This document shows, piece by piece, positions 34,828 to 41,283 of a DNA stretch of 64,000 nucleotides. Location of the stretch: assembly GCA_902580225.1 (NCBI GenBank), contig CACHJU010000001.1:62001-126000 (forward strand), in the 5' to 3' direction. The DNA comes from an uncultured Verrucomicrobiota bacterium. GTDB taxonomy: Bacteria; Verrucomicrobiota; Verrucomicrobiia; Opitutales; Seribacteraceae. Under the pieces are notes generated by a model. It searched no databases and had not been told where the DNA came from. It saw only the letters and a list, made by a program, of their open reading frames with translations. A program made the translations under genes and the position numbers. Positions within the stretch are counted from its first letter, which is position 1; each line of letters starts with the position of its first letter.

Positions 34828-35847
34828 ATGAATCAACTTACTGTAATTGCAACAAGTGCTTGTGGTTGGCCAAACCTTACAAAGTTAAGCAATGGGCAAG
34901 TGCTTTGTACTTATTTTAATGCACCTAGTCATGGACTTATGGAAGGTGACTTGGTATGCTCTATTAGTGATCGTAAGAAAGAAAAATGGAATAAATTATC
35001 TACAGTTGCGAAAAGACCGAAAGGGGGAAATCGGATGCATTTGGCAGTTGGTCAAGCACACAATGGAGATTTACTCTGCTTCAATAGTGGTTTTTTTGTT
35101 AAAAATAAAAAAATTGTCGGATTCTCAGGGCATTGGTTATCTAGATCAAAGGACCGAGGGAAGTCATGGAAAATTCAAAGTAATCCTGTTGTTCCAAAAC
35201 GAATTGATTCTACCATACCCTTTGGGCGTGTAATAAAATTAGATAAAAAGAAATTAGCATATGCATCTTATCGATCACAAGGACAAGGAAATCCGAGTGA
35301 AACATGGATGGTTGTTTCCGAAGATGACGGTGAAACATGGACAAGGGCTTTTAAATTTGGATCGAATGATTCTAATGAAGCTACACTATGTAAAATGGAG
35401 GATGGGAGAGTACTCGCCGCAACTAGGACTCATATTGATCACCATGTAAAACTTTGTGAACTTTCAAGGCTGGGGAGAAGGTGGAAAGATAAAGGTCCTC
35501 TTACATTACCAATGCAGCATCCAGCCGACTTAACGATCCTTTCCGAGCGATGTATTTTGATTACATATGGGATTCGTAATCGAGGGTTGATGGGAATTGG
35601 TGCGAGGATTAGCATTGATGGTGGTACGACTTGGAGACCGCCTTGGGTTATTCATCAGTTTGGGTCTGAGGCCAAGGATATAGGTTATCCGTCGACAGTT
35701 CTGCTCGATAAAAAAGGAAATTTGCTTACTGGATTTTACACAGATTTTGAGCCTACTCTAAAAGTTAAACCCAATAGATACCGGGTAATATCGATGAAGT
35801 GGTCCCTTAAAGATTGGCTTCACCCCAGTATTCTTAAGTCAATTTAA
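34828..35847 (+). CDS. BNR/sialidase-fold protein
   Basis: This 339-residue six-bladed propeller of the sialidase superfamily has three clear Asp boxes: SKDRGKSW at 107-114, SEDDGETW at 164-171 and SIDGGTTW at 262-269. A possible N-terminal Arg and the EATLCKMEDGRVLAATR segment fit exo-sialidase-like glycoside hydrolases, but the full Arg triad cannot be assigned by eye. There is no signal peptide, so it would act in the cytoplasm on imported oligosaccharides. It is flanked by leftward genes on both sides, so it has its own promoter. An alternative is a non-sialidase family with the same fold. Confidence 0.75.
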   Translation: MNQLTVIATSACGWPNLTKLSNGQVLCTYFNAPSHGLMEGDLVCSISDRKKEKWNKLSTVAKRPKGGNRMHLAVGQAHNGDLLCFNSGFFVKNKKIVGFSGHWLSRSKDRGKSWKIQSNPVVPKRIDSTIPFGRVIKLDKKKLAYASYRSQGQGNPSETWMVVSEDDGETWTRAFKFGSNDSNEATLCKMEDGRVLAATRTHIDHHVKLCELSRLGRRWKDKGPLTLPMQHPADLTILSERCILITYGIRNRGLMGIGARISIDGGTTWRPPWVIHQFGSEAKDIGYPSTVLLDKKGNLLTGFYTDFEPTLKVKPNRYRVISMKWSLKDWLHPSILKSI

Positions 35848-35872: not shown

Positions 35873-37471
35873 TTAAGATTTCTTTCTAAATTTTTCGATG
35901 TAATCGGGACGTATGGTTACATCGCTATCATCCTCGTAGAAATTTCGTAAATAGGTCAGCCTTTTTTTCAATTTTTTCTGCAATAGAAGAGATTTTTTTT
36001 GCCCGTAGATATTAGAAAGTTCGTCTGGGTCAGTTTTAAGGTCGTACATTTCCCATTCTTTATCAAATTGATAAAAATGCATTAATTTGTGACGCTTAGT
36101 CCGAATGCCATAGTGGCACGGTATCATGTGCACACTGGGATATTCGTAATAGTGATAGTAAATTTCTTTTCTCCAGTTTTTTGGAGTTTCTCCTTTTAAG
36201 AGTGGAACCAATGATCGCCCTTGCATGTCCTTAGGTTGGGATGCACCTGCGATCTCTAAAAAGGTTTGAGCGTAATCTAAATTTTGAACCAACTCCATTT
36301 GCCTACTTTGAGGTTTTGTAACACCCGGCCATTTTACAATTAGAGGCATTTTAAGAGATTCTTCATACATCCATCTTTTATCATACCATCCATGGTCGCC
36401 GATATAGAAACCTTGGTCAGAGGAGTAAATTACAATAGTATTCTTATCAAGACCAAGGTTTATAAGTTCTTTCTGCAAGCGTTCGAGACTTTCATCAACT
36501 CCTTTTACGCATCTTAAATAATTCTTAGCATACCTTTGAAACTTCCATCGAACAAGCTCTTTGCCACTTAATTTTGCCTCATTAAATTCTTTATCTCTGG
36601 GGCTGTAATGATCTCTCCAAACCTTTAATTGTTCTTGAGTCATTCTTTTCATGTTGTGCCATGCGGAACGATCTTGGCTTTTTTGAGAAGGAGGCTGGTT
36701 GTAGTCTGGCGTTAAATTTAGGAATAAATCATAGTTTATGTCCATATGGCGGTCGATTTCCAGTTCTTGTACTCGTGCTCCGGGTGCATTGTCCTGCCAA
36801 TCGTCAAAAAGGGTGGCAGGTTCAGGTATGCTAATGTCCGCATATAGATCCAAGTGTCGTAGTGCAGGCATCCAGTTTCTATGGGGTGCTTTGTGTTGCA
36901 CCATCAGCATAAAAGGTTTTTCGTCGCTTCTCTTATTATTAAGCCAGTTTACCGCTAGATCAGTCACCAAATCTGTACAATAACCTTCTAATCGCCTTTT
37001 TCCTTCTGGGAAAATCATATCCGGATTATAGTACAAACCTTGTCCCGGAAGTACTGCCCAATCATCATATCCTTGGGGTTTTCCCTTAAGATGGCTTTTA
37101 CCATAAATAGCAGTTTGGTATCCTGCTTTTTGTAAAAGTTTCGGGAAAGTTTGTTGGTTCCAATCAAAGGTATTTCCGTTGTTCATGAAACCGTTTTTGT
37201 GGCTATGCTTTCCAGTTTGAATAACAGCTCTGCTCGGTCCACATATGGAATTAGAACAAAAACTGTTAACAAAAAGCATACCTTCAGATGCCAATTTATC
37301 GATTACTGGAGTCGGATTGACTGACTTGAGCCAACCATTATAAGCACCGATAGCATGCGGAGCATGATCATCGGTAAAAACAAAAAGAATATTTGGTCTT
37401 TTATCTGCTAATAATGAAATTATCCCGATGAAAAAACTGGAAAAAAACAAATTTTTAAAAAAAGAATTCAT
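35873..37471 (-). CDS. Sulfatase, type I (active-site complete)
   Basis: This 532-residue exported sulfatase has a signal peptide (about 1-22), metal-binding D34-D35 in FTDDH, and the formylglycine motif CGPSR at 77-81 with the following GKHSH. Further catalytic positions are present in YGKSHLKG, VQHKAPHRNW and SSDQGFYIGDHGWYDKRWM. It would cleave sulfate esters from polysaccharide or arylsulfate in the periplasm, after Cys77 is converted to formylglycine. Closest paralogues in the window are the genes at 37689 and 59910, which share domain order and the C-terminal YYHYYEYPS-type block. The specific glycan is unknown. Confidence 0.93.
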   Translation of the reverse strand: MNSFFKNLFFSSFFIGIISLLADKRPNILFVFTDDHAPHAIGAYNGWLKSVNPTPVIDKLASEGMLFVNSFCSNSICGPSRAVIQTGKHSHKNGFMNNGNTFDWNQQTFPKLLQKAGYQTAIYGKSHLKGKPQGYDDWAVLPGQGLYYNPDMIFPEGKRRLEGYCTDLVTDLAVNWLNNKRSDEKPFMLMVQHKAPHRNWMPALRHLDLYADISIPEPATLFDDWQDNAPGARVQELEIDRHMDINYDLFLNLTPDYNQPPSQKSQDRSAWHNMKRMTQEQLKVWRDHYSPRDKEFNEAKLSGKELVRWKFQRYAKNYLRCVKGVDESLERLQKELINLGLDKNTIVIYSSDQGFYIGDHGWYDKRWMYEESLKMPLIVKWPGVTKPQSRQMELVQNLDYAQTFLEIAGASQPKDMQGRSLVPLLKGETPKNWRKEIYYHYYEYPSVHMIPCHYGIRTKRHKLMHFYQFDKEWEMYDLKTDPDELSNIYGQKKSLLLQKKLKKRLTYLRNFYEDDSDVTIRPDYIEKFRKKS

Positions 37472-37537
37472 GGTATCATTAATTAAATTTTATGATTAAA
37501 AATACAGACTATAAAAAAAGGGCAGTCTGTAAAAGAC

Positions 37538-37569
37538 GAAAGGTGCCGTCCTCCCAAACGACACCTTTC
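37538..37569 (-). terminator. Strong hairpin between two sulfatase genes
   Basis: GAAAGGTG and CACCTTTC form a perfect 8-base stem, extended after one mismatch by CGT/ACG around an 8-base loop. It lies 119 bases after the stop of the sulfatase-like gene and 66 bases before the next ATG, both on the minus strand. On that strand it is followed by GTCTTTT and, 20 bases later, a run of seven T. It could terminate the first gene or protect the message of the second. Confidence 0.5.
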
Positions 37570-37688
37570 AGGATATGCATTCCTTTAAACTAAATATTTA
37601 AAACATTTTAGATTTTGCACAAGACTTTTTTATATTTTTGTACAAAATTGTTTAATTTCACCAATATATGTTTTAAAAGTTCGTTCAT

Positions 37689-39350
37689 TTATTCCTTTCT
37701 TGCTTCAGGACCTCGATATATTTTTCTCCACTCTTCGGGCATAATTGAAATATCAGTTTGATCTAGGTAATTTTCACGATCTTTTTGAAGTAATTTTTTG
37801 AGGTTTTTAATTTGGACATCATAATTTTCATCATTAAATAAATTCTGCATTTCAAATGGATCATCCTTTAAATTGTAAAATTCCCACTCATCAAATTGAT
37901 AAAAATGGATTAATTTGTAATGGTTGGTTCTAATGCCGTAATGTTTCGCGGTCATTTGATCTCCAGGAAATTCATAATGGTGATAGTAAATTGAATTTCT
38001 CCAAGTAAGATTTGAATCAAAATTCTCCAATAATGGTCTTAAGGAATAACCTTGTATATTTTCTGATTCTATAGCTCCTGCATAATCCAAAATAGTTGGA
38101 GCAATATCAAGATTTTGTACGAGATCATCGACAATCTGCAAGTTGTTTTTTAATTGATTTTTATTTATGATTAAAGGTGTCTGTAAAGATTCTTCATACA
38201 TCCAACTTGAACCGAACCACCCATGCTCCCCAAGCATTCTTCCGTGGTTGGATGTGTATATTAAAAAAGAGTTGGTTGAATTTGTTTCAGTTAGAGAATT
38301 TTGGATTCTTTGTACGTTATCGTCTATGCCTCTTACACATCGAAGGAAATTTTTTACATATCTTTGGAACTTCCATTTTAGAATAATTTCGTCTGATTGA
38401 GTTTCCCGAAGGAAAGCTTCGTTCTTTGGTCTCCATGAAAGCGTCCAAGCTGATAATTGTTCTGCAGTCATTGATGCAAGATTCGCCTCCGATTTATTTT
38501 CGTCGAATTTTTCGGGCTGGAAAAAGAGATCTTCTGAAAAGTTTAAATCGTCTATGATAGCCATAGATTGATATCGGGCGGGACTGGCTTTGTTTAGATG
38601 TTTGTCATCTAAGTTAAAAGGTTCAGGAAGTAGTAGGTTGTCATATAGACTTAAGTGTCTTATGGCGGGCAACCATGGTTCACTTGTAGCATTAAACTGA
38701 ATAAATAGAAAAAAAGGTTTATCGTGATTTCTTTTTTTAATCCATTCGATAGCTAGGTCAGAAATGATGTCAGTAGAGTGCCCTTCAATTCTTTTTTTAT
38801 TGTTTAAACTAACAAATTCGGGATTATATTTTTCTGAAGGATCATTCAGAATATTCCAGTGGTCAAAGTTTTTTGGTTTTGATCCAAGATTCCATCTTCC
38901 GATAAGTATGGTTTCATACCCAATTTTTTGAAGTTTTCGGGGAAGAGAATCCTGAGAATTATTAAATTTATTTCCATTTTGAAAAAAACCATTAATATGA
39001 GAATGCTTTCCAGTTAAAAGAACCGCTCCGCTGGGTCCAGAAGTTGCATTTGTGCAAAAGGCTTTTGTGAAAAGAAAACTTTTAAGGGCAAGACGATCAA
39101 GGTTAGGAGTGGGATCCACTTCTGATAAATAACCTTTGTAAGCACCCAAAGCACTTACAGGGTGACTTTCTGATACAATCAGAATGAAATTAGGTTTCTC
39201 ATTTCCATGAGCGGAAATAAAAAAAATTAATATGGAAGAAAATCTTACAATTTGAAGAAACCAATAAATTTTCACTTCCCTGTATTGAAATTCTTTTGAC
39301 AAAGAAGCGAGAAAATTTCTCTCAATATTATTATTATTTGATTGAACCAA
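37689..39350 (-). CDS. Catalytically dead sulfatase paralogue
   Basis: This is a full-length (553 residues from TTG; a GTG at 39275 gives a better signal peptide) relative of the adjacent sulfatase, alignable end to end. Yet catalytic positions are replaced: the metal pair DD becomes E61-S62, formylglycine Cys becomes S104, the motif Arg becomes G108 (SGPSG instead of CGPSR), GKSHL becomes GRWNL, HKAPH becomes FNATS, DQG becomes NHG, and the late Lys becomes Ser. The fold-defining segments (WMYEESLQTPLI, YYHHYEFPG, HYGIRTNHYKLIHFYQF) are kept and there is no frame damage. So this looks like a maintained pseudoenzyme, perhaps glycan-binding or regulatory. A serine-type sulfatase is unlikely because the motif Arg and metal ligands are also lost. 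Confidence 0.85.
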   Translation of the reverse strand: MVQSNNNNIERNFLASLSKEFQYREVKIYWFLQIVRFSSILIFFISAHGNEKPNFILIVSESHPVSALGAYKGYLSEVDPTPNLDRLALKSFLFTKAFCTNATSGPSGAVLLTGKHSHINGFFQNGNKFNNSQDSLPRKLQKIGYETILIGRWNLGSKPKNFDHWNILNDPSEKYNPEFVSLNNKKRIEGHSTDIISDLAIEWIKKRNHDKPFFLFIQFNATSEPWLPAIRHLSLYDNLLLPEPFNLDDKHLNKASPARYQSMAIIDDLNFSEDLFFQPEKFDENKSEANLASMTAEQLSAWTLSWRPKNEAFLRETQSDEIILKWKFQRYVKNFLRCVRGIDDNVQRIQNSLTETNSTNSFLIYTSNHGRMLGEHGWFGSSWMYEESLQTPLIINKNQLKNNLQIVDDLVQNLDIAPTILDYAGAIESENIQGYSLRPLLENFDSNLTWRNSIYYHHYEFPGDQMTAKHYGIRTNHYKLIHFYQFDEWEFYNLKDDPFEMQNLFNDENYDVQIKNLKKLLQKDRENYLDQTDISIMPEEWRKIYRGPEARKE

Positions 39351-39438: not shown

Positions 39439-41283
39439 ATGTGTGGAATTGTTGGCTATTTAGGTAAAGGATATGCACAAGCACCCCTCATCGATGGACT
39501 TCGTCGATTGGAGTATAGGGGTTATGACTCTGCAGGTGTTGCCTTTCATGAAGGAAATGAATTTTCATTGGCTCGTGAGACAGGGCGTGTGAAAAATTTA
39601 GCGGACTCGGTTCAAAAAAACAGTTCATCATCATCACTTGGGATAGCACATACTCGATGGGCAACACATGGAGCGGTTACGGTTTCGAATACTCACCCTC
39701 ACATGAGTCAGGATGGAAAGTTTGTGATGGTTCACAACGGAGTGATTGAAAATTATGGAATCCTTAAAAAGTTCTTAGTAAGCAAGGGCATTAAATTTTC
39801 TTCAGAGACTGATTCTGAGGTTTTGTGTAATCTAATTGCTTATCATTATTCAGAATTACCGACAGGAGAAGATCGTTTTATTGATGCAGTGCGTTTAGCC
39901 CTACCTCAGTCTAGAGGAGCCTATGGCATCGTAATTCTATGTGTAGATTATTCTGACACCATGATTGGGGCGAGACGAGGATCTCCGTTAGTTGTTGGCC
40001 TTGGTGAGGAAGCTAATTTTATTGCTAGTGATGCTTCAGCATTTGTTGGTAGGGCTAAAGAAGCAGTCTTTCTTAACGACGGTGAATTGTCGATTATAAG
40101 CGGGAAAAATTTCCGCATCACGACGATGGAAGGAGAGGAAGCTAAAGCAGTTGCTCATCCAGTTGAACAAATATCAGAAGAAGTCGAACTTGGGGATTTT
40201 GATTCCTATATGGAGAAAGAAATTTTTGAGCAGCCTACTGCTCTTGAAAATACTTTACGTGGGCGTTTTGGAGATGATGGTACAACTGCTAAATTGGGTG
40301 GATTGGAAGGGCACGAAGATGAACTTCGAAATTTGGATAGAATAATTTTTGTGGCTTGTGGCACTGCACGCCATGCATGCATGGTTGGAGAATATTTAAT
40401 CGAGCGTTTGGCTAGAGTTCCCGTAGAGGTTGAACATGCATCTGAATTTCGATATCGAAATTCTCCAAAAGCTGGAAAATCATTAGTTATTGCTGTAAGT
40501 CAATCCGGAGAAACTTTAGACACTTTGGAGGCTGTTCGTGAGGCAAAGACAAAAGGGCTATTAACTTTGGGTATTACCAATGTCGTAGGATCTTCTCTTG
40601 CCAGAGAGACGGATGGTGGAGTTTATCAAAGGGTTGGTCCTGAAATTGGTGTTGCGTCGACTAAAGCTTTTTCTTCTCAGGCTTGCCTGTGTGCAATGTT
40701 AGGACTAGCATTGGGAAGAATGCGAGATTTGTCGCCAACTGATGGTCAGGCTATCGTACAAGCATTGAATGACTTGCCTGACTTGGTTACCAAAGTATTA
40801 CAACAGGGTGAACAGATTAGAGAGTTAGCAATAAAGTATTCCAAGGCAGAGCATCTTTTATTTCTTGGACGACAAAGCCTTTATCCGGTTGCTTTGGAAG
40901 GGGCGTTGAAGCTGAAGGAAATTTCATACGCCCATGCTGAAGGATATCCAGCAGCTGAGCTAAAACATGGTCCTATCGCATTAATCAACCCAGATTGTCC
41001 ATCTGTTTTCATTGTTGAGGGTTCGAGTCTTTCATCTAAGACAATTGCAAATATGCAAGAGGTAAAAGCAAGAAAAGGTCCTGTTTTGGCTATTGCACCT
41101 GATAATGTTGAAATCCCTGAAGAGGCTGTAGATGATATTTTTAGGTTACCGGTTGTTCACGAAGTGATTCGCCCAATTTTGGCAAACTTGCCTCTTCAAT
41201 TATTCGCTTACCATTTTGCTAGACTTCGGGGACTTGATGTTGATAAACCTAGAAATTTAGCTAAGTCTGTAACTGTTGAGTAG
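39439..41283 (+). CDS. glmS: Glucosamine-6-phosphate synthase (isomerizing)
   Basis: This 614-residue enzyme makes GlcN-6-P from fructose-6-P and glutamine, the first step to UDP-GlcNAc. C2 in MCGIVGYLG is the glutaminase nucleophile after Met removal. LRRLEYRGYDSAGVA and THPHMSQDGKFVMVHNGVIEN complete the N-terminal domain. Two SIS domains follow (about 285-420 and 455-595), with the ACGTARHA and SQSGETLDT motifs. The C-terminal DKPRNLAKSVTVE carries the catalytic Lys. I saw nothing resembling the glmS ribozyme in the 88 bases upstream. Confidence 0.97.
   Translation: MCGIVGYLGKGYAQAPLIDGLRRLEYRGYDSAGVAFHEGNEFSLARETGRVKNLADSVQKNSSSSSLGIAHTRWATHGAVTVSNTHPHMSQDGKFVMVHNGVIENYGILKKFLVSKGIKFSSETDSEVLCNLIAYHYSELPTGEDRFIDAVRLALPQSRGAYGIVILCVDYSDTMIGARRGSPLVVGLGEEANFIASDASAFVGRAKEAVFLNDGELSIISGKNFRITTMEGEEAKAVAHPVEQISEEVELGDFDSYMEKEIFEQPTALENTLRGRFGDDGTTAKLGGLEGHEDELRNLDRIIFVACGTARHACMVGEYLIERLARVPVEVEHASEFRYRNSPKAGKSLVIAVSQSGETLDTLEAVREAKTKGLLTLGITNVVGSSLARETDGGVYQRVGPEIGVASTKAFSSQACLCAMLGLALGRMRDLSPTDGQAIVQALNDLPDLVTKVLQQGEQIRELAIKYSKAEHLLFLGRQSLYPVALEGALKLKEISYAHAEGYPAAELKHGPIALINPDCPSVFIVEGSSLSSKTIANMQEVKARKGPVLAIAPDNVEIPEEAVDDIFRLPVVHEVIRPILANLPLQLFAYHFARLRGLDVDKPRNLAKSVTVE

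Follow-up and report, generated by a model that had tools for sequence, protein, structure and literature searches.

Sequence evidence for an old, maintained pseudo-sulfatase in two genera of marine Opitutales

What keeps a sulfatase-like reading frame intact once its catalytic residues are gone? The question is raised by a pseudo-sulfatase gene in the 64,000-nucleotide stretch of DNA analysed here (the window), where it lies beside a sulfatase that is predicted to be active and with which it shares 41% identity. The frame is open from end to end and the structural blocks are conserved, as the initial annotation of this locus had held, and the protein matches PF00884 and PF16347 (Sulfatase and SGSH_C) over its full length. 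Translation probably begins at the GTG at position 39275 rather than at the TTG at 39350, because the GTG is preceded by AGGGAA and followed by a signal-peptide-like segment, and because the alignment of orthologue N-termini supports it. A helix at residues 23–45 of the AlphaFold model overlaps this signal-like N-terminus, and sequence and model together suggest that the protein is exported. The coordinates of the gene, of its altered sites and of the surrounding features are collected in Table 1.

The nearest solved relatives of the pseudo-sulfatase are 9s03, BT4656 (5g2v) and BT3177 (7p24), of which BT4656 and BT3177 are S1_11 enzymes that take 6-O-sulfate off GlcNAc (PMC10154612). Sequence comparison places the pseudo-sulfatase in the S1-type fold, closest to these S1_11 GlcNAc-6-sulfatases. 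The AlphaFold model, made with 30 sequences (pLDDT 78, pTM 0.82), has BT4656 (5g2v) as its best PDB match, with a TM score of 0.82, and in the fold alignment the protein is 37% identical both to 5g2v and to 7p24. From the confidence of the model and this match we conclude that the sulfatase fold has been kept. The pocket loops have low confidence in the model, but we do not use this as proof that the pocket has collapsed, since the active neighbour is also weak there with the same alignment.

Table 1. Positions in the window of the pseudo-sulfatase gene, its former active-site segments and the features around it
Feature	Position	Strand	Remark or basis
Pseudo-sulfatase ORF	37689–39350	-	553 aa from TTG; uninterrupted
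Likely pseudo-sulfatase CDS	37689–39275	-	from GTG, about 528 aa
Signal-peptide-like N-terminus, residues 26–48	39207–39275	-	hydrophobic segment
Former metal Asp pair, now Glu61-Ser62	39165–39170	-	alignment with active relatives
Former formylglycine motif CxPSR, now S104-G-P-S-G108	39027–39041	-	alignment with active relatives
Former catalytic K-x-H, now R152-W-N154	38889–38897	-	alignment with active relatives
Former H-K-A-P-H, now F-N-A-T-S, residues 219–223	38682–38696	-	alignment
Former metal Asp-Gln, now N368-H369	38244–38249	-	alignment with active relatives
Former Asp-Lys-Arg, now G380-S-S382	38205–38213	-	O4-recognition Asp/Arg and catalytic Lys
Basic C-terminal tail MPEEWRKIYRGPEARKE	37692–37742	-	conservation compared with active relatives
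-35-like TTGTGC	37617–37622	-	36 nt upstream of the RNA element
Conserved stem-loop RNA element, 56 nt	37531–37586	-	T-rich terminator-like tail at its end
Predicted active S1_11-type sulfatase (neighbour)	35873–37471	-	every catalytic residue present by alignment
glmS (SIS and glutamine amidotransferase domains)	39439–41283	+	divergent to the pseudo-sulfatase
BNR/sialidase-like gene	34828–35847	+	syntenic border on the neighbour's side

Loss of the active site

In the window gene, S104 replaces the formylglycine Cys and G108 the Arg of its motif, F219, N220 and S223 replace a His, a Lys and a His, and S381 replaces the late Lys. In addition, G380 and S382 replace the Asp and Arg of the S1_11 substrate-recognition triad, in which a His recognises O3 and the Asp and Arg recognise O4 (PMC10154612). 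The triad residues were assigned in our own alignment, with the His probably corresponding to H448, and among the pseudo-sulfatases the Asp is retained in 0%, the Arg in 5% and this probable His in 9%. The formylglycine motif C/S-X-P/A-S/X-R is lacking throughout: its Arg is absent from 22/22 aligned orthologues and the Cys is never present, its site being occupied by A, T, P or V in the orthologues of the window gene. The calcium-binding set of acidic residues is not preserved either, with the equivalent of D352 missing from every aligned orthologue, and the equivalents of H127, H193, K194, H197 and K365 are retained in 0% of the aligned pseudo-sulfatases. The claim of the initial annotation that all catalytic positions are substituted stands for the window gene when it is set against the active neighbour and 79 active relatives, but it goes too far for the lineage, because half of the orthologues keep the second Asp of the metal pair and 16 of 22 carry K or R at position 152, the former Lys site.

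Serine is a known formylglycine precursor, so a change from Cys to Ser would not by itself prove loss, and it is the missing Arg and metal ligands that are decisive. Retention of a Ser-type formylglycine chemistry was ruled out on these grounds and because the Ser is not conserved. A new enzyme built on the old residues was likewise rejected, as the former catalytic positions have no shared constellation. Judging from these alignments, the active site has been lost, and we infer that the protein has no sulfatase activity.

To see how far the loss is concentrated there, 22 pseudo-sulfatases were aligned with 79 active relatives, and the 156 positions with at least 95% conservation in the active proteins were compared. 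Twelve of the 16 catalytic, motif or substrate-recognising positions are retained in at most 10% of the pseudo-sulfatases, compared with 22 of the 140 other invariant positions (Fisher p = 2e-6). Loss is thus strongly concentrated on the active site, yet the disappearance of those 22 further near-invariant, non-catalytic positions means that it is not confined there, and the proposal that only the active site had been lost has to be narrowed to this extent.

The initial annotation had also suggested glycan sensing or substrate presentation. In favour of a glycan-binding protein whose remodelled pocket would bind or detect a glycan carrying sulfate or amino sugars, one can cite the dozens of sulfatases encoded in the genome and the precedent of HPSE2, an inactive paralogue that binds substrate (PMC12406646). 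The pocket-facing pattern [FY]-N-[AG]-[TS], which recurs at the former H-K-A-P-H site in most orthologues, also speaks for such a protein. We nevertheless consider it unlikely, because neither the sulfate site nor the S1_11 triad is left and because the former catalytic positions vary freely, which hardly fits a single new ligand that all orthologues would bind in the old pocket (mean entropy in the pseudo-sulfatase clade 1.89 bits at these positions, 1.05 at the other active-invariant positions and 1.69 for the rest or overall). For the same reasons it is improbable that the old pocket still serves to sense or present the former substrate. Two sites are exceptions to this drift, position 219, which is always aromatic (F/Y), and position 380, which is nearly always Gly, and they may leave room for some pocket function.

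Age, distribution and selection

Orthologues were sought in related genomes and in GTDB species genomes, and the regions around the matches were inspected. The pseudo-sulfatase is present in 28 genomes, 20 of the window's genus and 8 of a sister genus, at identities from 74% down to about 33%, and the named contigs that carry it are marine Opitutia/Opitutales MAGs. All full-length orthologue frames are intact, a few others being cut by contig ends, and the active site is lost in each of the 28. In the tree, 24 pseudo-sulfatase rows form one clade with an SH-aLRT of 100, and its branch has a length of about 2 changes per site. By this phylogeny the loss is old and dates from before the divergence of the two host genera.

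Unsaturated pairs of pseudo-sulfatases give dN/dS values of 0.08–0.25, with bootstrap upper limits of at most 0.38. A young pseudogene, for which the initial annotation expected no orthologue and a dN/dS near 1, is ruled out by the 28 genomes and these ratios. That the gene is a slowly decaying pseudogene has an almost negligible probability in our judgement. Most comparisons do show it evolving faster than the neighbour, with a higher dN/dS in 3/5 comparable pairs (equal in 1/5, lower in 1/5), and this also fits a weakly constrained role, but intact frames throughout, newly fixed residues and ratios far below 1 would not be expected of a decaying gene. A pseudoenzyme is recognised in sequence by two marks, a loss of catalytic residues that extends across the orthologues and a fold and frame kept under purifying selection, and both are found here. 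Since selection has kept the gene with its active site gone, another job is most likely, which supports the original proposal that the pseudo-sulfatase is maintained because its role has changed.

Third codon positions are more AT-rich in the pseudo-sulfatase genes of the window's closest relatives than in their neighbours, and pS to loci L100 and L101 is 0.58–0.64 for the pseudo-sulfatase gene and 0.83–0.84 for the neighbour; the fewer synonymous differences may come from the AT-rich third positions or from local exchange. Plasmid records yielded no orthologues, the sulfatases among the matches listed being less than 40% identical. Seven members of the genus (G002, G005, G007, G010, G011, G020 and G025) are without glmS, pseudo-sulfatase and RNA element together, and because these genomes are 60–84% complete the absence probably reflects an unassembled region, although the region may truly have been deleted.

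Neighbouring genes and an adjoining RNA element

The usual gene order is glmS (divergent), pseudo-sulfatase, RNA element, active sulfatase and BNR/sialidase-like gene. The pseudo-sulfatase, the RNA element and the active sulfatase lie in tandem on one strand in 22 of the 28 pseudo-sulfatase-bearing genomes, an arrangement that could mean that the pseudo-sulfatase serves the adjoining active sulfatase alone, as its non-catalytic subunit, its chaperone or its regulator, all the more as two homologous folds could heterodimerise. In the remaining six (G016, G026, G033, G035, G057 and G059; 89–96% complete), an orthologue of the neighbour was found neither at the locus nor among the best matches elsewhere. 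There the pseudo-sulfatase sits between glmS and the BNR gene, and no other S1_11 relative among the best ones compared exceeds 54% identity to the neighbour. Because the pseudo-sulfatase persists in these genomes, regulation of the neighbour, as first suggested, cannot be its sole role. A terminator-like hairpin also separates the two genes, and orthologues of the neighbour occur in other genera of the family with no pseudo-sulfatase beside them. On this sequence evidence the pseudo-sulfatase is not tied to its neighbour, and a dedicated partnership between the two seems to us doubtful. The neighbour is probably not the parent or a recent duplicate either, as an AU test rejects the two as a single clade (p 0.0004), a result to be taken with caution since long branches share model bias.

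In the window's own genome (G000; 2.36 Mb, 67% complete) there are about 10 FGE-domain genes besides 82 sulfatase-like match segments, which means that the bacterium can probably carry out formylglycine maturation.

On its other side the pseudo-sulfatase is near or beside a divergent glmS in every assembled locus and directly adjoins it in most. In five genomes, however (G012, G015, G018, G023 and G024; loci L105, L107, L108, L110 and L111), one to three genes lie between the two; a shared divergent promoter region is therefore not required, and the adjacency may be mere synteny. glmS also occurs in two further genera of the family, with no pseudo-sulfatase adjoining it. The association with glmS, and the fact that the pseudo-sulfatase outlives its sulfatase neighbour, could be accounted for by an envelope regulator like PbgA/YejM that is tied to amino-sugar synthesis. 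For such a regulator there is the precedent of PbgA (also YejM or LapC), in which a sulfatase-like domain is without the residues typical of the superfamily (PMC7018646); one further article reports YejM as a metalloenzyme (PMC7576196). PbgA, however, has a five-helix membrane domain and belongs to a different sequence family, whereas the pseudo-sulfatase is an S1_11 relative with no transmembrane domain in its model beyond the signal-like helix and has no match to the YejM model NF038282. With the intervening genes also counting against it, we regard an envelope regulator of this kind as distinctly improbable.

Directly 3′ of the pseudo-sulfatase, wherever it is found and even where the active neighbour is lacking, lies the RNA element. 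Its 12-bp stem is paired in 23/23 sequences tested and includes three covarying pairs, its loop UUGGGAGG is invariant in 23/23, and a smaller hairpin precedes it. A TTG is found 33–38 nt upstream in 23/23 aligned loci, although a generic promoter scan did not flag the TTGTGC. The element is apparently transcribed independently, and we take it to be either a gene for a small RNA or a specialised terminator. A covariance model detects it in 26/42 genomes of the family, in a single copy each except in G006, and in 18/223 genomes of the order, all within the two genera; the model did not find it in the pseudo-sulfatase-bearing genomes G035 and G057. There is no Rfam match at the gathering threshold, and within the window the loop has no convincing complementary site in nearby mRNAs. 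A module of pseudo-sulfatase, 56-nt RNA element and divergent glmS, in which the exported pseudoenzyme would sense an amino-sugar glycan, either external or of the envelope, and glucosamine-6-phosphate synthesis would be coupled to this with the help of the RNA, is a highly speculative idea to which we give very little credence.

In G006 two copies of the locus are found (contigs C319 and C253; L109 and L116), each with the RNA element. One copy is 94–97% identical to the sister genus, which its contig resembles, and that contig is probably a contaminant.

Related pseudoenzymes and constraint away from the old pocket

The S1_11 sulfatases BT4656 (5g2v), BT3177 (7p24) and 9s03 share the whole fold and the domain order with the pseudo-sulfatase. 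Unlike them, it has no formylglycine motif, metal site, catalytic Lys and His residues or O3/O4 triad, and it has a conserved basic C-terminal tail. HPSE2 is comparable in being an inactive paralogue of a sulfated-glycan-degrading enzyme that selection has kept, but it is related to an animal glycosidase, and substrate binding and competition have been reported for it (PMC12406646). The resemblance of the pseudo-sulfatase to PbgA/YejM and to HPSE2 is one of principle only. The GH99-related marine protein of Robb et al. 2017 is said to be without catalytic machinery; it too would be a pseudoenzyme of marine glycan degraders, with a glycoside hydrolase fold instead. In the open-access literature, to which our search extended, we found no conserved clade of S1 pseudo-sulfatases described. 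Sulfatase catalogues count by fold, so that this lineage would be counted although its protein can hardly work as a sulfatase. With 28 natural variants, some with and some without the active neighbour, it also offers a test case for a glycan enzyme gaining a non-catalytic role, and the adjoining RNA element is a further unnamed object that is easily testable.

The explanation that we tentatively prefer, at somewhat less than an even chance, is an ancient, maintained and exported pseudo-sulfatase whose outer surface would bind a partner or serve as a scaffold, with no catalysis involved; to a secreted non-catalytic binding or scaffold role as such, also our favoured reading, we would attach slightly less confidence still. 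The S1_11-type fold no longer has its metal site, its means of forming formylglycine or its substrate recognition, yet it is still under purifying selection, and the protein, most likely exported, would bind its partner through this surface and not through the old pocket. Candidate surfaces would be the helical segment around residues 296–345 and the conserved basic C-terminal tail, and candidate partners a polyanion or a second protein from the machinery for sulfated glycans. Only residues 301–320 and the tail are at least as conserved as in the active relatives. Tail residues 541–553 have a conservation of 0.76 in the pseudo-sulfatase clade versus 0.28 in the active relatives, the pattern in the clade being EEWRRIYRGPxARK, and the newly fixed, pseudo-sulfatase-specific residues include P225, Y260, L269, R315, N345, E539 and P548.
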